From NCBI GenBank assembly GCA_030630935.1, contig DAOVMD010000054.1, forward strand, positions 1 to 11,536: a stretch of 11,536 bases of DNA, read 5' to 3'. This DNA comes from Candidatus Mcinerneyibacteriota bacterium. GTDB taxonomy: Bacteria; AUK180; JAQVHJ01. The notes under the pieces are model-generated. The model searched no databases. It was not told where the DNA came from and worked only from the letters and a program-made list of their open reading frames with translations. Position numbers and translations under genes: made by a program. This document shows positions 1 through 10,035 of the stretch, piece by piece (the first letter of the stretch is position 1; every line of letters begins with the position of its first letter).

Positions 1-9
1 CGCAATGAC
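1..9 (-). repeat. Edge fragment of the GTCATTGCG repeat family
   Basis: The first nine bases, CGCAATGAC, match one end of the repeat copies at 414-452 and 544-585. The rest of this copy would lie outside the window to the left. The match is short, so it is suggestive only. Confidence 0.4.
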
Positions 10-49
10 AAATAAACAACTGTTCTCTGTTCTCAGTTCTCTGCTCTCG

Positions 50-74
50 GTTTGGTTAACAGAGTTAACCAAAC
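50..74. repeat. Perfect 11-bp inverted repeat
   Basis: The arms GTTTGGTTAAC (50-60) and GTTAACCAAAC (64-74) are exactly complementary with a 3-nt loop. No T-run follows on either strand, so it does not look like an intrinsic terminator. It directly follows the T/C-rich microrepeat, and it could be a small repeat element or a protein-binding palindrome. Confidence 0.7.
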
Positions 75-76
75 AT

Positions 77-97
77 GCCCTAATCAAATGAATTTAA
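77..97 (+). repeat. Direct repeat, copy 1 of 2
   Basis: This 21-bp segment (GCCCTAATCAAATGAATTTAA) recurs at 313-333 with a single difference (A to G at the sixth base). Two copies about 236 bp apart in non-coding DNA suggest an interspersed or duplicated repeat. The DNA between them holds several palindromes. Confidence 0.75.
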
Positions 98-147
98 ACC
101 ACCCAAAAGAAATAGAAATTTTTATATCATTGATAAATTCTTTTGAA

Positions 148-161
148 AATCGTTTACGATT
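148..161. repeat. Short palindrome AATCGT-TT-ACGATT
   Basis: Six-base arms at 148-153 and 156-161 pair perfectly around a 2-nt loop. It is one of a run of small hairpins in this region and is weak if taken alone. Confidence 0.5.
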
Positions 162-181
162 CTTATGACAACAATGCGTAG

Positions 182-237
182 CCTGGGGCTTCAGCCCTAG
201 GAAAACGATTGAAGAACAACTAGCCGTTTACGGCTAG
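182..237. repeat. Tandem pair of GC-rich hairpins (REP-like)
   Basis: Two hairpins sit close together. The first pairs 182-189 with 194-201 (8 bp, with one G-T/G-U wobble position) around TTCA. The second pairs CTAGCCGT (220-227) with ACGGCTAG (230-237) perfectly around TT. Paired GC-rich stems in otherwise AT-rich intergenic DNA resemble REP/BIME-type elements. No T-run follows, so a terminator is unlikely. Confidence 0.6.
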
Positions 238-297
238 TATGAAAACAATAAAAAATTATCCTTTCCAAGACCAAAGCATTGTCTCCCAACAAAGTAG

Positions 298-316
298 GGG
301 AGAACGCCGTTCGCCC
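298..316. repeat. Imperfect GC-rich palindrome around GAACGCCGTTC
   Basis: GAACG (302-306) pairs with CGTTC (308-312) around a single C. Outer GGG (298-300) and CCC (314-316) extend the symmetry across one mismatch. It ends inside the second copy of the 21-bp direct repeat, which suggests nested or abutting repeat units. Confidence 0.5.
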
Positions 317-333
317 TGATCAAATGAATTTAA
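313..333 (+). repeat. Direct repeat, copy 2 of 2
   Basis: This segment matches 77-97 at 20 of 21 positions. Flanking bases diverge on both sides, so the shared unit is short. It overlaps the right arm of the palindrome at 298-316. Confidence 0.75.
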
Positions 334-363
334 CCCTTCCGAATGATAAAAAGAAAAACAAAA

Positions 364-383
364 GCATCGATTAACATCGATGC
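364..383. repeat. Perfect 8-bp inverted repeat GCATCGAT/ATCGATGC
   Basis: The arms at 364-371 and 376-383 are exactly complementary around TAAC. It is flanked by A-rich runs on both sides. There is no gene close enough for it to serve as an obvious operator. Confidence 0.6.
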
Positions 384-413
384 ACTCCAAAAGAAAAACA
401 AATAAAAAAAGAT

Positions 414-452
414 GAGATTGCCACACTTTGATAAATCAAGATTCGCAATGAC
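414..452 (-). repeat. Interspersed repeat, GTCATTGCGA...GGCAATCTC type, copy A
   Basis: Read on the minus strand this copy begins GTCATTGCGA and ends GGCAATCTC, the same ends as the copy at 544-585, while the middle differs. It shares CTTTGATAA (plus strand) with the copy at 487-520. Elements with these ends occur in intergenic regions of many unrelated bacteria (recalled, not searched). Conserved ends with a variable middle suggest a mobile or template-switched repeat. Confidence 0.65.
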
Positions 453-768: not shown

Positions 769-2085
769 ATGAGTTTAACATTTCCGGGTGGAGTTCATCC
801 ACCTGATAAGAAGGGGTTGGCGCGCAATGCACAGATTGAGAAGATGCCTGCTCCGGAAGAGCTTATAATACCCATGTCTCAACACATTGGTGCTCTTTGT
901 TCACCTACCGTGAAGAAAGGTGACAAGGTTTTTATGGGTCAGTTGATTGGTGATTCAGAAGCTTATGTATCAGCACCAATTCATTCATCTGTTTCGGGTG
1001 AAGTGAAGATAATCGAACCGAGACCTCATTTATTAGGTAAGAAAATTTTATCTGTTGTTATTAAGAATGACGGTGAATTCAAGAAGGTTGACGGACTTGA
1101 AGGATGCAGTGATTGTTTTTCATTATCACCTGATGAGTTAAAGAAAAAGATTCGTGCAGCCGGTATTGTAGGATTAGGCGGGGCTACGTTCCCCACGCAT
1201 GTCAAGCTCAGTCCACCGAAGGAATTTCCTATTGACACCGTAATAATTAATGGTGCGGAATGTGAGCCTTATTTAACAGCAGATTACAGGTTAATGGTTG
1301 AAGATCCGGTAAGTATAGTAAACGGTTTAAAATTATTGATGTATATTTTAGATGCGAAGAAGGGTATTATTGCAATTGAAGATAATAAACGCGATTCAAT
1401 TTTAATTTTTGAAGATCTTGTTGCTCGGGAGAACTCGATAGAAATCCTTGGTGTTAAGACAAAATACCCCCAGGGTGCGGAGAAGCAGTTAATTTATTCC
1501 TGTACAAAACGTATTGTTCCCGCTGGTTCTTTACCAATGGCTGTTGGGATTGTTGTTCATAATGCCGGGACTGCCAGCAAGATTCATTACTCATTGAAAT
1601 TTGGTTTACCATTGATCTCAAGAGTTGTAACGGTTTCAGGAGAAGGGATTCAGCATTCGAAGAATCTTGAAATTTCAATTGGTACGACATTTAAGGATGT
1701 AATTAGATTCTGCGGGGGATTCAAAGGAACCCCGGGCAAAGTAATTGCCGGAGGACCTATGATGGGATTTGCTCAGAGTTCATTAGAAGTCCCGGTGATT
1801 AAAGGTACATCCGGAATTTTAATTTTCCCGGAAGATTTCACACATATTCCGGTAGAAGATGTTTGTATCCGATGCGGAAAATGTGTTGATGTTTGCCCGA
1901 TGAAATTAATGCCGTATAAACTTGGGCAATTAGCAGAGTTTGGTTATTTTGATGAGGCAGAGGATTGGAATGCAATGGACTGCATGGAGTGTGGTTCCTG
2001 TTCCTATATCTGTCCTTCAAACAGGAGATTAATACATTATATTAAACTTTTAAAAGCTGATATTCTTTCAAAGAAAAAGAAGTAA
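769..2085 (+). CDS. rnfC: Rnf electron-transport complex subunit C
   Basis: RnfC is the peripheral cytoplasmic subunit that binds NAD(H) and FMN and exchanges electrons with NAD+ in the ferredoxin:NAD+ oxidoreductase. The N-terminus (FPGGVHPP, then QHIGA and the APIHSSVSGEV stretch) is the barrel-sandwich domain of the family. GLGGATFPTH (135-144) and NGAECEPY (161-168) belong to the flavin/NADH-binding core shared with NuoF. Two 4Fe-4S motifs lie at the C-terminus: C366/C369/C372/C376 and C405/C408/C411/C415, each followed by Pro. At 438 residues it matches the short RnfC of anaerobes rather than the extended E. coli RsxC. The ATG is preceded by GAGGT with 5-nt spacing. It is the first gene of the operon, and rnfD starts 9 nt after its stop. 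Confidence 0.97.
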   Translation: MSLTFPGGVHPPDKKGLARNAQIEKMPAPEELIIPMSQHIGALCSPTVKKGDKVFMGQLIGDSEAYVSAPIHSSVSGEVKIIEPRPHLLGKKILSVVIKNDGEFKKVDGLEGCSDCFSLSPDELKKKIRAAGIVGLGGATFPTHVKLSPPKEFPIDTVIINGAECEPYLTADYRLMVEDPVSIVNGLKLLMYILDAKKGIIAIEDNKRDSILIFEDLVARENSIEILGVKTKYPQGAEKQLIYSCTKRIVPAGSLPMAVGIVVHNAGTASKIHYSLKFGLPLISRVVTVSGEGIQHSKNLEISIGTTFKDVIRFCGGFKGTPGKVIAGGPMMGFAQSSLEVPVIKGTSGILIFPEDFTHIPVEDVCIRCGKCVDVCPMKLMPYKLGQLAEFGYFDEAEDWNAMDCMECGSCSYICPSNRRLIHYIKLLKADILSKKKK

Positions 2086-2094
2086 GAGGGAAAA

Positions 2095-3192
2095 ATGGAG
2101 ACTAAGAAATTAATTGTTTCAACCTCACCGCATTTCAGGTCCAAGGATTCTGTTAAATTAATTATGTACCTTGTTGTGATTGCCCTTTTACCAACTGCAA
2201 TTGTCGGTATTTATTTTTATGGACTACCGGCATTAAAAGTGATTTTATTTAGTGTTCTCACAGCAGTAATTACCGAATATATCATTCAAAAGTTTAGGAA
2301 AGTTAAAGTAACAGTTCAAGATGGTTCAGCTGCATTAACCGGCTTACTTCTTGCCCTGACATTACCACCTAACCTGCCGTTTTATATTCCGGTAATCGGG
2401 TCATTCTTTGCAATTGCGATTGGAAAACAGATTTTTGGAGGTCTGGGTTATAATCCTTTTAATCCCGCATTATTAGGGAGGGCATTTTTATTAGCAGCCT
2501 GGCCGGTTTCATTAACTACTACATGGCAAGCGCCCACAAAAGTAATTGGATTATCGGGAATACTCCAGAGCAAACTTGTTGCGGTTTTACAACCATCAGG
2601 AAATGAAGTGTTAATTGAAGCACTTTCATCCGCAACACCTTTGAATCTATTAAAGCAGGTGTTCAATACAATTCAAACAGGTGAATTATCTCAAGAGATT
2701 GGAGATAAGGTTATAAATTTATTATATTCAACAGATAACCTATTTAATTTAATGATTGGCAGAGTAGGCGGGTCAATAGGTGAAGCCTGTGCGATATTAA
2801 TAATTTTAGCAGGACTTTTCTTAATAATCAGAAAGATCATCACATGGCATATCCCTGTTTCTTATATTTTAACAGTCGCTGTTTTTGCCTGGATTTTTGG
2901 AGGTCAAAAAGGCGCATTCTTTACAGGGAATCCATTATTCCATATCTTTGCCGGGGGATTAATGCTTGGTGCATTCTTTATGGCAACGGATTATGTTACG
3001 AGTCCCATGACATCCAAAGGAAAATTAATATTTGGAGTAGGGGCTGGTTTACTCGTAGTAATTATTCGAAGATGGGGCGGGTATCCGGAAGGAGTTTGTT
3101 ATTCAATTCTTTTAATGAATATGGCAACTCCTTTGATTGATCGATTTACAAAACCCAAAGTTTTCGGTTTCACGAAACCGGATAAGGACTGA
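2095..3192 (+). CDS. rnfD: Rnf electron-transport complex subunit D (membrane, FMN-carrying)
   Basis: RnfD is an integral membrane subunit of the NqrB/RnfD family that carries a covalently bound FMN. The 365-residue protein has many hydrophobic helices and the family signature GYNPFNPALLGRAF (118-131). The flavin attachment motif is S178-S179-A180-T181-P-L, with Thr181 as the expected FMN-bearing residue. The base motif in the family is usually written S/T-G-A-T, so the Ser at 179 and the Glu at 175 (where the flavin transferase motif often has Asp) are variations worth noting. GAGGG right after the rnfC stop gives a ribosome binding site 4 nt from the ATG. The rnfG ribosome binding site overlaps its stop codon, implying translational coupling. 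Confidence 0.96.
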   Translation: METKKLIVSTSPHFRSKDSVKLIMYLVVIALLPTAIVGIYFYGLPALKVILFSVLTAVITEYIIQKFRKVKVTVQDGSAALTGLLLALTLPPNLPFYIPVIGSFFAIAIGKQIFGGLGYNPFNPALLGRAFLLAAWPVSLTTTWQAPTKVIGLSGILQSKLVAVLQPSGNEVLIEALSSATPLNLLKQVFNTIQTGELSQEIGDKVINLLYSTDNLFNLMIGRVGGSIGEACAILIILAGLFLIIRKIITWHIPVSYILTVAVFAWIFGGQKGAFFTGNPLFHIFAGGLMLGAFFMATDYVTSPMTSKGKLIFGVGAGLLVVIIRRWGGYPEGVCYSILLMNMATPLIDRFTKPKVFGFTKPDKD

Positions 3193-3202
3193 GGTATCGG
3201 AT

Positions 3203-3847
3203 ATGAAGGAATATTTAAAATATACCGGTGTTCTGTTAATAATTGCAATAATCGCAGCAGTTGCTTTGGGTGGGATCTACAAAGCTACCAAACCAAATAT
3301 TGATAAACAGGAAGAACTCGAAAAAGCTAATGCGTTAAAAATAATCTTTGGCGACTTTGATATGGAGAGTATTGAAGTTTTAAAGATTGATGACGAGACT
3401 GAGATAAAAAAGATATATTCAAAAGACGGTGATTTTATAGGAGTTGCATTTGAAGTTATCGGCAAGGGTTTCAGTAGTAGTATAAAAACTACTGTTGGTA
3501 TGAAGACAGATGGTACAATCATCGGGATTAAGGTAACTTACCAGGAAGAGACTCCCGGACTTGGTGCAAGGATGAACGAGGTGAAATCCTCAAAATATCT
3601 ATGGACTTTCTGGAAGAGCGAACCGTCTTCCGGTCCAAGTTATCCAACATTCCAGCATGATTTTTATAATAAAAAATATGCTGATCTTCGCCTGAGTAAG
3701 AGTGGTGATATTAATGATGAAACCCCTGATATCGAAGCGATTACAGGTGCAACCAGTTCATCGAAAGCTGTTCTTGACAGTGTCGTAATCGGGTGTGAGA
3801 AAATACATGACTACCTGAAAAAAAATCCTGATATTGGAGATAAGTAA
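3203..3847 (+). CDS. rnfG: Rnf electron-transport complex subunit G (FMN-binding)
   Basis: RnfG is a single-helix membrane-anchored protein whose FMN-binding domain faces the outside of the membrane and passes electrons between RnfA/E and RnfD. The chosen ATG gives 214 residues. The same frame is open further upstream inside rnfD, but GAGGT at 3191-3195, overlapping the rnfD stop, fits this start with 7-nt spacing. Residues about 8-27 form the N-terminal membrane helix. E116-T117-P-G-L-G121 is the conserved ETPGLG motif. The flavinylation motif is T181-G182-A183-T184 followed by Ser-Ser-Ser, with Thr184 the expected covalent FMN site. The position six before Thr184 is Glu178 rather than the more common Asp. 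Confidence 0.96.
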   Translation: MKEYLKYTGVLLIIAIIAAVALGGIYKATKPNIDKQEELEKANALKIIFGDFDMESIEVLKIDDETEIKKIYSKDGDFIGVAFEVIGKGFSSSIKTTVGMKTDGTIIGIKVTYQEETPGLGARMNEVKSSKYLWTFWKSEPSSGPSYPTFQHDFYNKKYADLRLSKSGDINDETPDIEAITGATSSSKAVLDSVVIGCEKIHDYLKKNPDIGDK

Positions 3848-3848
3848 T

Positions 3849-4490
3849 ATGGAAGAAAAACAAAGTATTTTTAGCGTCTTTTCAAATGGGATATTCAAGG
3901 AGAACCCGGTTTTTGTTTTGGTTCTTGGAATGTGCCCGCTTCTTGCAGTTACAACATCTGCAATAAACGGCCTCGGAATGGGGCTTGCAGCCAGCTTTGT
4001 CTTAATTATGTCAAACTTAATAATTTCATTGGTCAGAAATTTTATTCCTGATAAAGTTAGGATTCCGGCATTTATTGTTGTAATTGCCACATTTGTTACA
4101 ATTGTTCAGTTTGTAATGAAGGGATTTTTCCCTGCTCTGGATAAAGCATTAGGAATATTCATTCCATTAATTGTTGTTAACTGTATTATCTTAGGTAGAG
4201 CCGAAGCTTTTGCTTCAAAGAACAATCCAATCAGAGCAATAATAGATGGAATTGGTATGGGTATAGGGTTTACACTCGCCCTGCTCCTGATTGGTGGAGT
4301 AAGGGAAGTCCTGGGAGCAAATAAACTTTTTGGATATTTAGTTTTTCCCGAAACATTCAAACCTTTAGTATTCATGATTCTACCACCAGGAGGCTTTCTG
4401 ACGATGGGTTTATTATTAATGTTCTTCAATTGGATCTCTCATAAACGTTCTATTACTGAAGCAAAGAAGCAAATTGCGGCAAAGGAGTAA
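3849..4490 (+). CDS. rnfE: Rnf electron-transport complex subunit E
   Basis: RnfE is a six-helix integral membrane protein that pairs with RnfA. Structures of Rnf and Nqr complexes show a [2Fe-2S] cluster held between the two by cysteines in the middle of the membrane. The matching residues here are C29 in LGMCPLL and C112 in VVNCIILGRAEAFA, both in conserved family motifs. The reading frame also allows a TTG at 3834, inside rnfG, but GGAGA (3836-3840) with 8-nt spacing makes the ATG at 3849 the likely start, one base after the rnfG stop. The resulting 213 residues is a normal length for RnfE. rnfA begins 3 nt after the stop. Confidence 0.96.
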   Translation: MEEKQSIFSVFSNGIFKENPVFVLVLGMCPLLAVTTSAINGLGMGLAASFVLIMSNLIISLVRNFIPDKVRIPAFIVVIATFVTIVQFVMKGFFPALDKALGIFIPLIVVNCIILGRAEAFASKNNPIRAIIDGIGMGIGFTLALLLIGGVREVLGANKLFGYLVFPETFKPLVFMILPPGGFLTMGLLLMFFNWISHKRSITEAKKQIAAKE

Positions 4491-4493
4491 ACT

Positions 4494-5093
4494 ATGATTA
4501 TTGCAAAATTATTTATAATAGTTATTGGTGCGATCTTTGTAAACAACTTTGTCCTTGCAAGGTTCTTAGGAATCTGTCCATATCTCGGAGTTTCAAAGCA
4601 CTGGGAATCTGCAATGGGAATGGGATTAGCTGTTATTTTTGTTATGACTCTCGCTTCATTTATTACATGGATAATCTATAGGTATGTTCTCCTTCCATTT
4701 GAGAGTATTGGAGCAGTTGCAGTTCTTCAAACAATTACATTTATCCTTACAATTGCTGCTCTTGTTCAGGTAGTTGAAATGATAATGAGAAAAACAGCAC
4801 CGGCACTCTACAAAGCATTAGGGATTTACCTTCCTTTAATTACGACAAATTGTGCTGTTCTTGGTGTTACATTACTTAATATTAAAGATAATTTTAATCT
4901 GTTAGAGACACTTATTCATGGTTTCGCTGCGGGGGTAGGTTTTACACTTGCCCTGTTGTTAATGGCAGGAATCAGAGAAAGGTTAGAGTTTGCAAAATTA
5001 CCGAAGGCTGCACAAGGCTTTGCAATTGCATTTATAATTGCCGCTTTAATGTCTTTATCGTTCCTGGGTTTTTCAGGATTAATCACAGAATAA
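4494..5093 (+). CDS. rnfA: Rnf electron-transport complex subunit A
   Basis: RnfA is the second six-helix membrane subunit, homologous to RnfE but inserted with opposite topology. The pair holds the intramembrane [2Fe-2S] cluster that carries electrons across the membrane. NNFVLARFLGICPYLGVS (17-34) is the family N-terminal signature with C28, and C120 lies in LITTNCAVLGV. At 199 residues it has the usual length. AAAGGAG (4481-4487) overlaps the end of rnfE and places the ATG 6 nt downstream, so translation is probably coupled. RnfA and RnfE are distinguished by the RFLGICPYLGVS signature here against LGMCPLLAVT in RnfE. Confidence 0.97.
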   Translation: MIIAKLFIIVIGAIFVNNFVLARFLGICPYLGVSKHWESAMGMGLAVIFVMTLASFITWIIYRYVLLPFESIGAVAVLQTITFILTIAALVQVVEMIMRKTAPALYKALGIYLPLITTNCAVLGVTLLNIKDNFNLLETLIHGFAAGVGFTLALLLMAGIRERLEFAKLPKAAQGFAIAFIIAALMSLSFLGFSGLITE

Positions 5094-5109
5094 TGGAGGA
5101 TCAATTACA

Positions 5110-6162
5110 ATGTCTGAAAATATCATTATAATCGCATCCTTATCCCTTGGGGGATTAGCATTATTCTTCGGAGTATTAATCACTGCAATCTCCAAGAAGT
5201 TCGCAGTTGAAATCGACCCGAAAATCCTTGAAGTGGAAAAGGCATTACCCGGTGCAAATTGCGGAGGGTGCGGGTATCCGGGATGTGCAGGATTTGCAGA
5301 AGCAGTTGTCCTGGCAGGAGTATCGCCTACTTTATGTGCTCCGGGCGGTGAATCATCCGTAAAGGCAATCGCCGAAATCCTCGGTATTACAGTAGAGAAA
5401 AAAGAAAAAATGATAGCAAGATTAACCTGTAATGGTGGAGCTCTTCGGGCAAAAGACCGATATATCTATGAAGGAATTGAAGATTGTAAAGCAGTTAAGC
5501 TTCTTAATAGCTTTAAGGAATGTCCGTATGGATGTTTTGGATTTGGGAACTGCGCAGTTGTCTGTCCGTTTGATGCAATCTATATTTCAGATGAAAATCT
5601 ACCTGTGATCGACCCGGAAAAATGCACTGCCTGTGGTGCTTGTGTTAAGGAGTGCCCCCAGGATATTTTAATCCTGCTTCCTACAGCAAAAGATGTATAC
5701 TTAATTTGTAATAATACTGAAGCCGGGAAATTTGTTTCAAAAGCCTGTGAAGTCGGCTGTATTGCCTGTGGGATGTGTGTAAGAAACTGTCCCATCGAGG
5801 GCGCAATTGAATTAGTAAATAACCTTGCAGTTCAGAATAAGGAGTTATGTGTTAATTGCGGAATCTGTGCTACAGTCTGCCCAAAAAATTGTATCCAGGA
5901 TCACCGTCCTGAAAGTAGGGGAGTCGCACTAATTCTTGAAAAATGTATTGGCTGTACAATGTGTGCAAGAAAATGCCCCGTAAATGCAATCTCCGGAAAA
6001 GTTAAAGAGGTCCATAAGGTTGATCCGGAGAAATGTATCGGTTGCCTGAAATGTTATGATGTATGTCCGGTAAATGCAATTAATATTACAACCGAAATTA
6101 AAAAGATCCCGGAATACTATAAAAATAACCAGTTTAAAAAAGAAGTAAAAGAGAAGAAATAA
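5110..6162 (+). CDS. rnfB: Rnf complex subunit B, polyferredoxin with extra C-terminal clusters
   Basis: RnfB accepts electrons from reduced ferredoxin on the cytoplasmic side. Residues about 4-28 are a membrane helix. The CGGCGYPGC domain that follows has ligands C51, C54, C59 and C76. After C107 and C126 come six candidate 4Fe-4S motifs: C138/C142/C148/C152, C172/C175/C178/C182, C217/C220/C223/C227 (with C213 just before), C247/C250/C253/C257, C279/C282/C285/C289 and C309/C312/C315/C319. With the N-terminal cluster this makes up to seven. At 350 residues it is far longer than E. coli RsxB (about 190) and somewhat longer than clostridial-type RnfB. The last two motifs look like an appended bacterial 2[4Fe-4S] ferredoxin. 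The tail is Lys-rich. GGAGGA lies 9 nt before the ATG. Confidence 0.96.
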   Translation: MSENIIIIASLSLGGLALFFGVLITAISKKFAVEIDPKILEVEKALPGANCGGCGYPGCAGFAEAVVLAGVSPTLCAPGGESSVKAIAEILGITVEKKEKMIARLTCNGGALRAKDRYIYEGIEDCKAVKLLNSFKECPYGCFGFGNCAVVCPFDAIYISDENLPVIDPEKCTACGACVKECPQDILILLPTAKDVYLICNNTEAGKFVSKACEVGCIACGMCVRNCPIEGAIELVNNLAVQNKELCVNCGICATVCPKNCIQDHRPESRGVALILEKCIGCTMCARKCPVNAISGKVKEVHKVDPEKCIGCLKCYDVCPVNAINITTEIKKIPEYYKNNQFKKEVKEKK

Positions 6163-6163
6163 A

Positions 6164-6967
6164 TTGATTTTTTTTGACACACATTCACATATTATTCCTA
6201 ACCTGGATGATGGCCCCGATGATGAATCCGAGACATTGGAATTATTAAAATTATATCAAACCAGGAATATAAAAAAAATTATTTGTACACCTCATATCTA
6301 CCATGGATTATATGAAAATTCAAAGGATTCAATTTTAGCGAAGTTTAAGATCCTAAAAAAACTCATCCGGGATAATAACATTGAGATTGAAGTTTACCCC
6401 GCATCAGAGGTAATGGCTTACATTGGTTTGGAAAAAGATTTATTCTCTGATAAGATTTTAACTGTGAATGATGAAAAAAAATTTGTATTTATTGAGTTTC
6501 CGTTAACCGGCTATCCTGCATTTGTTGAGGATATGGTCTTCAAAGTTCAAGTAGCAGGTTTAATTCCCATTCTTTCCCATCCTGAAAGGTATGCTGCAAT
6601 CGTTAAAAACCCCCTGAAAATATTCGATTATTTGGATAGAGAAATTTTAATTCAGATGAACTCCGGGAGTATTACAGGGAAGTTTGGAAAAAATGTTTTG
6701 AAAACTGCCGAGTTTATTTTAAAGCATAAGCTCTTCCATTTTGTCGGGACTGATACACATTCAATCTCGTCACGACGCCCTGATCTACCGGAAGCTTATG
6801 AAAAATGCAAGACTTATTTAAATGAGGAAGAATTAAAAATCATCTTCAAAGATAATCCGGAAGCATTAATTTCCAATGAGCGGATTCAATACCTTGAACC
6901 CATTCCTTATGAAAGTCAGGAAAAAAAAATCTTCGGGTTCTTCAAAAAAATCTTCAATTCGGATTAA
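6164..6967 (+). CDS. CpsB/CapC (YwqE)-like PHP-domain phosphatase
   Basis: The 267-residue protein belongs to the PHP superfamily and most resembles CpsB/YwqE, the manganese-dependent protein-tyrosine phosphatases that act on polysaccharide-synthesis tyrosine kinases. The N-terminal motif D5-T-H7-S-H9 with L14-D15-D16-G17 matches the family pattern of D-x-H-x-H followed by L-D-D-G. Further metal ligands appear as H44 (CTPH), H139 (SHPER) and D197/H199 (GTDTH). The start must be the TTG at 6164, because the in-frame stop TAA at 6146-6148 excludes anything upstream except non-start codons. Only a weak GAGAAG precedes it. It begins one base after the rnfB stop. No tyrosine kinase or capsule gene is visible, so the substrate is unknown, and histidinol-phosphatase-type PHP activity cannot be fully excluded. 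Confidence 0.88.
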   Translation: MIFFDTHSHIIPNLDDGPDDESETLELLKLYQTRNIKKIICTPHIYHGLYENSKDSILAKFKILKKLIRDNNIEIEVYPASEVMAYIGLEKDLFSDKILTVNDEKKFVFIEFPLTGYPAFVEDMVFKVQVAGLIPILSHPERYAAIVKNPLKIFDYLDREILIQMNSGSITGKFGKNVLKTAEFILKHKLFHFVGTDTHSISSRRPDLPEAYEKCKTYLNEEELKIIFKDNPEALISNERIQYLEPIPYESQEKKIFGFFKKIFNSD

Positions 6968-6973
6968 ATACTT

Positions 6974-7918
6974 ATGACGAAAAAACTTTATGCATCAATT
7001 GATATCGGAACAAATACAATCCGCTTATTAATTCTAAAAAATCCTCTAAAAAAAGATGAAAAGATAATAGTTAACCTGGTTAGAACTGCCAGATTAGGAA
7101 AGAACATTCAATCTACGGGTAAAATTCCTCAGGAAAGTATTGAAACTGCAAAAAAGATTTTCTTAGAATATAAGGAAATTATTGATGTGAATAAAGTAAA
7201 GAATCTCTATTCTGCTGCAACTGAAGGAGTCAGAAAAGCAAAGAATAAAGAAGAGATTCTTAGTATTTTTGAAGATATCTTCTTAATTAAACCTGAAGTA
7301 ATTACAGGTGAACGTGAAGCTGATTTATTGAAAACTGCAAACTTTGAATTCATTAAGATCTATGGTCAGTTTTTATTGTTTGATGTAGGCGGGGGGAGTA
7401 CAGAATTTATTCTCGAATCAACTAAACAAAGTAGGTTTGTTTCAATACCTGTGGGGATTTTAAGAATATTTGAGAAATATTTCAAATCACAACTTTCACT
7501 TGATGAAAATGAATATAGGACAATTTCAGATAAACTCATTGAAGAGTTGAAATTCATTATTGACGAGTTTACTTTTGAGGAGATTCCCCTTATCGGAACA
7601 GGTGGAACTGCAACAACTTTATCTTGCATTTATAAAGGTTTAAAAAAATATAATCATTATAAGGTTCATCATTCACATATACCATTAGAAGAGATTGAGA
7701 TTATTTTCGATACAGTGAATGCTCTCGACCTTGAATCAAGAAAAAGATTAATCGGTATGGATCCCGATAGGGCAGATATTTTATTACCGGGAATATTAAT
7801 AATTAAGGCGATCATGGAAACTTTAAACGAAAATAAATTGATTATTTCTGATAAAGGGATATTATTCGGTTTAATTTATGATAAGATCCAAGATTTGAAA
7901 AAGAAAAAGGAGCATTAG
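6974..7918 (+). CDS. Ppx/GppA family phosphatase (short, single-domain)
   Basis: Members of this ASKHA-fold family hydrolyse polyphosphate (Ppx) or pppGpp (GppA). D10-I-G-T-N-T15-I-R-L is the phosphate-binding loop, D137-V-G-G-G-S-T-E the second nucleotide/phosphate motif, and G208-T-G-G-T-A-T-T the third. ATEGVRKAKN and ITGEREADL correspond to further family motifs. At 314 residues it contains only the catalytic two-lobed domain and lacks the C-terminal HD-like domain of E. coli Ppx/GppA, like the short Aquifex-type enzymes. The ATG is 6 nt after the previous stop, and no strong ribosome binding site is visible (GGA at 6961-6963). Sequence alone cannot separate exopolyphosphatase from pppGpp phosphatase activity. 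Confidence 0.93.
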   Translation: MTKKLYASIDIGTNTIRLLILKNPLKKDEKIIVNLVRTARLGKNIQSTGKIPQESIETAKKIFLEYKEIIDVNKVKNLYSAATEGVRKAKNKEEILSIFEDIFLIKPEVITGEREADLLKTANFEFIKIYGQFLLFDVGGGSTEFILESTKQSRFVSIPVGILRIFEKYFKSQLSLDENEYRTISDKLIEELKFIIDEFTFEEIPLIGTGGTATTLSCIYKGLKKYNHYKVHHSHIPLEEIEIIFDTVNALDLESRKRLIGMDPDRADILLPGILIIKAIMETLNENKLIISDKGILFGLIYDKIQDLKKKKEH

Positions 7919-8410
7919 ATGACCAGCTCAAAATTAACCCAGATTGTGACTTTCGAATTAAATAATGTGATTTTCGGGATTGATGTTTTTGAAATTGATA
8001 AAATTCTTAAAAAAGAAAACTTGATTGACCTTCCCAGAAAAGAGATTACATATTTGATTGCAATGATAAAAATTGAATCAGAAATAATCTCAGTTGTAAG
8101 TTTAAGAAAACGATTCTCAATTCCTATCGCAGACCTAAAAAAAGAGAAAATTATTGTAATTAGACACTTGGACAATCTGATTGGGTTACTCGTGGATAAT
8201 GTTAAGAAGTTAATTGAATTTGAAGAATATGAAAAAATCTCAACTAAAACATGTCATGGTTTACCTTCTGAATTATTCACAGGCAAGATAAATGCCCAAA
8301 ACATGGATATTTTTATCATCGATGTTTTTAAATTATTAGAATATTCAGGCAAGCTAACTTTTAAATTCACTAAAAAGAAAGTAAAGAAACCTCGGAAAAA
8401 GAAAAAATAA
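7919..8410 (+). CDS. CheW-like chemotaxis/signalling adaptor protein
   Basis: CheW-domain proteins couple chemoreceptors to the kinase CheA. This 163-residue protein starts QIVTFELNNVIFGIDVFEIDKIL, the usual CheW beginning. It keeps the strand pattern ISVVSL-R63-K-R-F66 and I88-G-L-L-V-D93-N-V. The loop that in CheW normally carries an R-G (R-G-x-x-I/V-P-V) reads K-I-E-S-E-I-I-S, so the usual receptor/CheA-contact signature is degenerate. The last 16 residues (148-163) are very Lys-rich, a tail uncommon in CheW that could bind nucleic acid or acidic surfaces. The ATG touches the preceding TAG stop, with AAAGGAG 6 nt upstream inside the Ppx gene. No CheA, receptor or other che gene is in view. 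Confidence 0.85.
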   Translation: MTSSKLTQIVTFELNNVIFGIDVFEIDKILKKENLIDLPRKEITYLIAMIKIESEIISVVSLRKRFSIPIADLKKEKIIVIRHLDNLIGLLVDNVKKLIEFEEYEKISTKTCHGLPSELFTGKINAQNMDIFIIDVFKLLEYSGKLTFKFTKKKVKKPRKKKK

Positions 8411-8436
8411 ATTAATCATTGAAAGGAAGAATATTA

Positions 8437-9717
8437 ATGTTTACACATCTCCATAATCATTTTAAAGGGTCCTTTTTTGATAGTATAATTGATGACAAGA
8501 AGGCATTTGCAAAGTTAAATTCTGATAATAACAAGGGATTAGCGATTACAGACCATGGTCAAATGAATTATATTGTAAAATTTTCCAATAACGCCCGGGA
8601 GTTCGGGATAAAACCATTACTTGGAATGGAATTTTATTTTGTTGAAGATGCTACGGAAACTATCAATACAAAAGATAATTTTAGGAACCACTTAGTATTA
8701 ATTGCAAAAGACTCTGAAGGATTTAAAAACCTTGTTAAACTAAATAATATATCCTGGAAGGATAATTACTTTCAACGAACTCCAACAAGTACATTACGCG
8801 GTTTATTAGATTGGAATATGATCGAAGAATACAATAAAGGATTGATCTGTCTTACCGCTTGTTTTTTCGGGTCTTTACCTTATAAAGTCATTAATAGTTC
8901 ACAGAAAGATGTGGAAAAGGAATATTTTAAGTATAAAGAGATCTTTGGAGATGACCTGTATTTGGAGATGAGTTACCATGGTATACCTGAAGAGAAAATT
9001 GCAAATGAAGGTATTGAATTTCTGATTAAAAAATTTAATCAGAAAGGAGTTATAACTCAGGATTCCCATTACCTTAACCCGGATGATTATAAAACTCAGG
9101 ACATTTTAATAAATACAAGATTTGGCTATGCATCAAATTTCCACTTTAAATCTAAGGATTATTATTTCAAAAGTGAAGATGAAATGAGAAAACTTGGATT
9201 CAAAGAAGAATACTTAAATAATACAAATGAAGTTTATGAAAAAGTCAATTTCGATATTATCGAGTTCTATAAAGAAATAAAAAATGATTTTATAGTACAT
9301 GAATCAGATAAGGGGGAGGGGAGTAGTTTTATCGGAGAAGAAATTCCATTCTCCACATGGAAAACACTTGGGCTTAAGGAAACATTGAGAAGAACTAATT
9401 TAGTTGTTGGATATTCTGATAACTTACTCGATAAAATCTATGATGCTATACCTGACTTTAATAAATCACTAAAGGAAAATCTCATTCAGTCGGATGAACT
9501 TAGAGATAATTTTGCAAACACACATAAAAATCTCTTTTCAATTGCCCAAACACTTGAAGATTTCTATATCGACTTTAAAGTATTACTTCAATATAAGATA
9601 AGAGCAAACTCTGATAAAAAAATCTTGGATTACTTCCCTGTAGTAAGGATACAAGATTATAACGGTCTGCTCTTGCAGTATGATCTCGAATCAATGAAGA
9701 TTCTGGGTTTTTTATAA
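8437..9717 (+). CDS. PHP-domain protein derived from DNA polymerase III alpha, polymerase core lost
   Basis: Residues 1 to about 270 match the N-terminal PHP domain of bacterial DnaE-type polymerases: H4-L-H6-N-H8, T-D39-H40-G, G-M-E65, N-H85-L-V-L, T-A-C142, and Q-D209-S-H211-Y. All metal-ligand positions of the active PHP form appear kept. Residues about 298-426 resemble the part of the polymerase just after the catalytic palm (FSTWKTLGLKETLRR, then DKIYDAIPD, then LQYDLESMKILGFL), and the protein stops where a polymerase would continue. The palm segment with the PDxDxD aspartates is absent. At 426 residues it is roughly a third to two fifths of a full PolIII alpha. The ATG with AAGGAAG 7-8 nt upstream is preferred over an in-frame TTG at 8419. 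It could be a PHP phosphoesterase or nuclease acting alone. Confidence 0.85.
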   Translation: MFTHLHNHFKGSFFDSIIDDKKAFAKLNSDNNKGLAITDHGQMNYIVKFSNNAREFGIKPLLGMEFYFVEDATETINTKDNFRNHLVLIAKDSEGFKNLVKLNNISWKDNYFQRTPTSTLRGLLDWNMIEEYNKGLICLTACFFGSLPYKVINSSQKDVEKEYFKYKEIFGDDLYLEMSYHGIPEEKIANEGIEFLIKKFNQKGVITQDSHYLNPDDYKTQDILINTRFGYASNFHFKSKDYYFKSEDEMRKLGFKEEYLNNTNEVYEKVNFDIIEFYKEIKNDFIVHESDKGEGSSFIGEEIPFSTWKTLGLKETLRRTNLVVGYSDNLLDKIYDAIPDFNKSLKENLIQSDELRDNFANTHKNLFSIAQTLEDFYIDFKVLLQYKIRANSDKKILDYFPVVRIQDYNGLLLQYDLESMKILGFL

Positions 9718-9732
9718 AAGGAGCATTTTAAT

Positions 9733-10035
9733 ATGGATTCAATTGCACCTAATTGGTTAATAGTTTTTAGGATTTCAACTTCGTTATTTGCCGGATTAAT
9801 ATTATTAGGATTAATAATCTGGGGGTATTTCAAAACCAAAAACCCCGGGTATATTATAATTGGTGGGGCTAATATTCTGCATATCTTGTTCCAGGTTGTT
9901 AAAGTGGTCTCCTTATTTGTCGCTCAAGCAACTTTCTATCAAATAAATCAAGTATTAATGTACCTAAGTTCTGTGGTATTCTTAATTTTAGTTATTGGTC
10001 TTATAGTTCTTATCGTGAAATCAGAAAAAAGATGA
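9733..10035 (+). CDS. Small hypothetical membrane protein, three predicted helices
   Basis: The protein has 100 residues and is strongly hydrophobic. Helices are expected at about 9-31, 39-64 (IIIGGANILHILFQVVKVVSLFVA region) and 72-96, with a short charged end (KSEKR). No family is recognised. Its ribosome binding site AAAGGAG (9717-9723) overlaps the stop codon of the preceding PHP gene with 9-nt spacing to the ATG, so the two are probably translationally coupled. It is the last gene of the run. Function is unknown, and a membrane anchor or partner for the neighbouring protein is one possibility without direct support. Confidence 0.75.
   Translation: MDSIAPNWLIVFRISTSLFAGLILLGLIIWGYFKTKNPGYIIIGGANILHILFQVVKVVSLFVAQATFYQINQVLMYLSSVVFLILVIGLIVLIVKSEKR

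Follow-up and report, generated by a model that had tools for sequence, protein, structure and literature searches.

A stand-alone PHP protein derived from DNA polymerase III alpha and its possible role in chemosensory signalling

The gene at positions 8437 to 9717 of the window, i.e. the whole stretch of 11,536 nucleotides of Candidatus Mcinerneyibacteriota DNA analysed here, codes for a derivative of the C-family DNA polymerases (DnaE) that consists of a complete PHP domain, the thumb and the second palm segment. It is one of 14 proteins from 13 genomes of four phylum-level lineages, all of which have the same deletion. Sequence, structure model and tree support the view that this family arose once from a C-family polymerase, through loss of the catalytic part of the palm and of all that follows the third catalytic Asp. 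We found no description of such non-polymerase DnaE derivatives, and the family is apparently undescribed. Judging from genomic context and domain fusions, its members would be metal-dependent phosphoesterases in chemosensory or second-messenger signalling, an explanation to which, taken as a whole, we assign slightly better than even odds (about 0.52).

Domain architecture and metal site of the window protein

The genes of the window run on the forward strand in the order rnfC-D-G-E-A-B, CpsB-type PHP, Ppx/GppA, CheW, PHP and small hydrophobic protein, and from the CheW gene onward the intergenic gaps do not exceed 26 nt. The features in and around the PHP gene are the following:

6974..7918, + strand: Ppx/GppA phosphatase, upstream of the CheW gene (PF02541, 3e-45)
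7919..8410, + strand: CheW-family adaptor, 163 aa, with a Lys-rich tail (PF01584, 2.6e-16)
8424..8429, + strand: AGGAAG, Shine-Dalgarno-like, 7 nt upstream of the ATG at 8437, read from the sequence
8437..9717, + strand: stand-alone DnaE-derived PHP gene, 426 aa from ATG, plus stop
8437..9270, + strand: PHP domain, residues 1-278 (PF02811, 6.7e-33; TIGR00594, 6.1e-60)
9271..9339, + strand: linker replacing DnaE ~290-445 (N-terminal palm; PGRGS and PDxDxD absent)
9340..9714, + strand: DnaE thumb and second palm segment, residues 302-426 (hhalign E 1.5e-11; structure model)
9733..10035, + strand: hydrophobic, membrane-like protein, 100 aa

The AGGAAG motif agrees with the good ribosome binding site named in the original prediction. 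Further upstream, an apparently complete Rnf-type electron transport operon, rnfC-D-G-E-A-B (769-6162), directly precedes the signalling genes, and a second, unrelated PHP protein of the CpsB/CapC type (6164-6967; PF19567, 1.2e-52) is encoded beside the Ppx/GppA gene. In genome G138, which belongs to another phylum-level lineage, the stand-alone PHP gene likewise has Rnf-like genes (L092:676-2268) a few kb upstream; their presence near the PHP gene in both places is probably a coincidence.

The original prediction saw in the gene product a post-palm fragment fused to the PHP domain, with the PDxDxD palm segment missing and an early protein end, and this description is borne out by both the alignments and the model. 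All curated polymerase matches of the window protein (NCBIfam, PDB sequences and PHROG) are to the C family, with no X-family PHP homology among them, and the best PDB sequence matches of its PHP domain are the Pol III alpha subunits of Thermus and M. tuberculosis. The match to the DnaE model TIGR00594 covers residues 2-281 only, and the NCBIfam DnaE models are matched over no more than about their first 290 positions. The residues after the PHP domain matched nothing in Pfam or NCBIfam and nothing convincingly in PHROG. Profile-profile comparison related this C-terminal part to DnaE with an E-value of 8e-6 (7-sequence family profile against 33 DnaE sequences) and, in hhalign with 14 sequences, with a probability of 97.4% at the E-value listed above; column-shuffled and reversed controls reached probabilities of 0.0-0.4%. 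In the multiple alignment, residues ~302-426 run parallel to DnaE 446-570 ('QIATISKMGPKASIRDVGRALDIP...VTQFDKDFIEKVGL'). The matched segment, DnaE ~445-565, starts just after PDIDID and ends just before the third catalytic Asp, and DnaE ~290-445, including PGRGS and PDxDxD, has no counterpart. The three-Asp palm active site (PDxDxD and the later Asp) is thus absent from the window protein, as the polymerase site is from all 14 family members, and because the protein ends earlier, the fingers, HhH, beta-clamp motif and OB/CTD are absent as well. By net charge, the stand-alone family and DnaE are not separable.

Structure prediction, which had been proposed as a check, gave a confident AlphaFold2 model (pLDDT 94.1, pTM 0.92; 19-sequence alignment), the sole low-confidence loop of which (residues 294-299) lies in the linker. 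The whole model (1..426) superimposes on residues 5..552 of E. coli Pol III alpha with a Z score of 44.6 and an rmsd of 2.6 over 406 residues, and on M. tuberculosis DnaE1 with a Z score of 40.6 and an rmsd of 2.4 over 412 residues. Other PHP enzymes in the PDB comparison reached Z scores of at most 16, with the PHP part only. Since the DnaE rows in the AlphaFold2 alignment ended after the PHP region (~300 residues), the thumb match was not built in by these rows.

The nine PHP ligands of the window protein are H6, H8, D15, H40, E65, H85, C142, D209 and H211. An active PHP site has the motif HHDHEH[C/H]DH (PMC12926913), and M. tuberculosis DnaE1 holds a trinuclear zinc site whose nine ligands, including D23, E73, H107 and D226 (PMC5636811), correspond to the nine positions in the window protein. 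The original prediction was right in that a full nine-ligand site is present, but it missed H8 and D15 and instead named H4 and D39, neither of which is a ligand; H4 is not conserved and is Ser in three relatives. HHDHEHCDH is invariant in 14/14 family members, which, outside the window protein's own pair, share 27-34% identity with it. Among 60 DnaE/PolC rows the motif deviates in five, and some DnaE proteins, e.g. that of E. coli, have lost metal ligands (PMC3666897).

Apart from the ligands, the surroundings of the site differ from those in DnaE. S100, Y105, K136 and W137 make up the path by which the primer reaches the PHP site of M. tuberculosis DnaE1 (PMC5636811). The residue preceding H85 is aromatic or His in 53/60 DnaE sequences versus 6/14 family members, and two positions before H85 there is Arg or Lys in 13/14 family members, compared with Arg in 7/60 DnaE. 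Moreover, in place of the KPR loop of DnaE the family has a longer segment, in which an LLDW-like motif is conserved. These remodelled residues are suggestive only, and may point to a changed substrate path.

Distribution, phylogeny and selection

The PHP gene is present in all seven genomes examined of the window's lineage. The homologue from genome G001 is 63% identical to the window protein over its full length, while those from the five genomes of the sister family f2 share 41-44% identity with it over the PHP part and, in the cases with a clear start, are 395-404 aa long. In the PHP frame of one f2 genome (G005; L036:6031-7236) no ATG, GTG or TTG precedes the HxH motif, and the gene may use a rarer start codon. 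A profile search of 386 genomes recovered further members, all of which align contiguously through the deletion point; they come from G035 (837 aa), G182 (860 aa), G215 (561 aa), G074 (583 aa), G138 (578 aa) and G275, which has two members, one of at least 1342 aa that meets the contig end and one of ~590 aa. Phylum-restricted searches assign these genomes to three other small phylum-level lineages, in which 2/2, 2/2 and 2/3 genomes carry the protein. Profile searches at E 1e-95 of a 386-genome sample returned no members beyond the four lineages, and there were none in the phyla of G034 (195 genomes) and G018 (40). Single-protein queries return mostly ordinary DnaE, and more divergent members may hide among the DnaE scores; most genomes in the comparison are draft assemblies.

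A phage origin was considered and rejected. None of the 870 phage records with related PHP domains covers 80% of the query, and every matching ORF in the 80 best IMG/VR loci has a better score as DnaE. The match in Bacillus phage vB_BpsS-140 is the first ORF of an apparent split DnaE; at L097:2339-5903, a PHP ORF of 363 aa is followed by an ORF of at least 838 aa, neither of which is annotated as a gene. The assignment to a defence system was likewise dropped, as the window protein had no PADLOC match; in one of the two G275 members (G275a) the cyclase domains alone match Pycsar cyclase models.

In a tree of the PHP domains, the 14 stand-alone proteins form one clade against the 60 DnaE/PolC rows (UFBoot 100, SH-aLRT 99). 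For the pair G002 and G003, computed with our own Nei-Gojobori script, dN/dS is 0.098 overall, 0.075 in the PHP part and 0.138 in the C-terminus, values within the range of 0.03-0.14 found for the neighbouring che genes, OsmC and DnaE, which indicates purifying selection. No stops interrupt the frames of the homologues, and all carrier genomes encode a separate full-length DnaE as well. The original prediction, which saw a stand-alone enzyme that kept the PHP chemistry and lost polymerisation, and which named orthologues with the same internal deletion and dN/dS as checks, is supported on these points. Although the architecture resembles a dnaE gene with an internal deletion, a decaying pseudogene or assembly artefact is refuted, in agreement with that prediction, by the intact homologues of the single clade, the dN/dS of ~0.1, the confident fold and the separate dnaE.

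Genomic context and presumed function

The direct upstream partner of the PHP gene in the window is the CheW-family gene, and a gene of this family lies immediately upstream of the PHP gene in 7/7 genomes of the window's lineage. In G001, a CheW gene cut by the contig end, the PHP gene and a gene for a hydrophobic protein follow one another in the same order as in the window, the two hydrophobic proteins sharing 26% identity over 66 aa (E 1e-8). In family f2, a short CheW-like gene and the PHP gene form the end of a complete che operon with PilT, which reads cNMP-binding protein, CheW, CheY, CheC, CheD, CheB, CheA, CheC, CheW, TPR, DUF4388-TPR, CheR, PilT, short CheW-like protein and PHP. This operon was annotated in G002; G003-G005 have the same order, and its tail was seen in G006. 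The PilT-family ATPase (L033:5321-6914; TIGR01420, 4e-144) lies between CheR and the truncated CheW-like gene of the f2 che operons. In genome G000 the corresponding CheD-CheB-CheA-CheC-CheW-TPR-DUF4388-CheR run lies on another contig, C76 (L114), without PilT, CheW-like gene or PHP gene, so that CheW and PHP are kept side by side at a separate place. Between G000 and f2, the pairing of CheW with PHP is thus retained in two unrelated genomic locations. As there are 4-9 CheW-domain genes among roughly 2,500 genes per genome, we estimate the chance of an adjacent CheW gene at less than 1% per independent context. The two types of CheW partner are only weakly alike (16-21% identity), and may therefore not be strict orthologues. 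In the three other lineages, CheW linkage was not seen and the neighbours, as judged by reading their sequences, look mostly metabolic.

Several members outside the window's lineage are fused to further modules. C-terminal TPR regions occur in G215, G074, G138 and the second G275 protein (G275b). The G182 protein has a weak TPR match and a C-terminal PilZ-like domain (E 2.4e-4; 21.8 bits against a Pfam cut-off of 22.5), and its 55%-identical counterpart in G035 was grouped with it as a TPR plus PilZ-like fusion, with PilZ not found there. In G275a (L089:2-4027), a pair of class III nucleotide cyclase domains, of the guanylate/adenylate type, and an AAA_16 ATPase are fused to the PHP/thumb unit.

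The constant CheW adjacency in the window's lineage suggests the recruitment of part of the replication machinery into cell signalling. We favour a signalling role because of this adjacency, the f2 che operon, the fusions to TPR, PilZ-like and cyclase modules and the remodelled DNA path. By analogy with DnaE1, the metal centre would hold three Zn or Mn ions, and the retained thumb segment would form a rigid wall of the active-site cleft or provide the docking surface. The PHP protein would be tethered to or controlled by the adjacent CheW-family adaptor in the window's lineage; in the other lineages it is covalently joined to TPR, PilZ-like or nucleotide-cyclase modules. Nucleotide second messengers, oligonucleotides and phosphoproteins are candidate substrates. 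A more specific proposal, namely that the replicase PHP and thumb were recruited once and degrade a nucleotide-type messenger or dephosphorylate a signalling protein under chemosensory adaptors, with different input modules in the four lineages, is tentative and stays clearly below even odds.

The main rival to the signalling role is an exonuclease that acts on its own on DNA or RNA, in repair or end processing, and that would be to the C family what noncanonical PolX and PolX-like proteins are to the X family. Noncanonical PolX has lost polymerase activity while retaining an efficient 3'-5' exonuclease (PMC9226535), and PolX-like proteins have lost the polymerase region (PMC12926913). The ligand set of our family is identical to that of the DnaE1 exonuclease, which counts against the signalling role too, since the family may cleave DNA, and in polymerases the thumb makes contact with DNA. 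We nonetheless regard such a nuclease as somewhat unlikely, since no repair or replication genes were recognised beside the PHP gene in the four lineages, the fusion and operon partners are signalling modules, and the DNA-entry residues are remodelled.

Less probable still is a Zn-bound, essentially structural scaffold or adaptor, in which the PHP site stabilises the fold and the protein acts by binding partners such as CheW or TPR. Mutation of PHP ligands destabilises DnaE1 (PMC5636811), so that ligand conservation alone can reflect stability, and both CheW and TPR are protein-binding modules. On the other hand, none of the nine ligands varies in any of the four lineages, whereas some DnaE proteins deviate, as in E. 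coli and in the five rows mentioned above. The trans-acting proofreading or repair function proposed in the original prediction is not favoured. A proofreading subunit acting in trans for the host DnaE would use the same PHP chemistry and is co-encoded with a full DnaE in each genome; yet HHDHEHCDH is itself intact in each host DnaE that was checked, and the partners and context are chemosensory, so that we consider this very improbable.

Relation to known systems

If the signalling role is correct, the PHP domain of the replicase exists independently as a signalling enzyme, and chemosensory systems gain a type of enzyme for which we found no description. The small soluble protein would also offer a clean handle on PHP chemistry freed from DNA synthesis. 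A search of a literature library yielded no paper on a PHP/DnaE-type enzyme in che systems, nor on a DnaE-derived counterpart of polymerase-dead PolX. A survey of C-family polymerases from 2013 kept only sequences whose polymerase site was intact (PMC3919608), and a real derived family could therefore be missed.

The closest known proteins are M. tuberculosis DnaE1 and E. coli alpha, which share the nine-ligand, trinuclear-type PHP domain, the thumb and the second palm segment (Z 40-45 over ~405 residues). Unlike these, the window protein has no PGRGS/PDxDxD, third Asp, fingers, HhH, clamp motif or OB, and it differs from DnaE in its separate clade and in its remodelled DNA path to the PHP site. 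The che operons with a type IV pilus ATPase provide the setting in f2, where the PHP gene is the last of a cheW-Y-C-D-B-A-C-W-R-pilT operon. Stand-alone PHP phosphoesterases, i.e. histidinol-phosphate phosphatase, the CpsB/YwqE phosphotyrosine phosphatase, RNase AM and nucleotide phosphoesterases, are small metal-dependent phosphoester hydrolases with the same fold (Z 9-16), but they are far more distant than DnaE (Z ≤16 versus 45) and have no thumb/palm relic. Noncanonical PolX and PolX-like proteins, finally, are likewise related to DNA polymerases and have given up polymerisation while retaining the PHP nuclease domain (PMC9226535, PMC12926913); in contrast to the window protein, they belong to the X family and are tied to end joining and repair, not to CheW, TPR, PilZ or cyclases.
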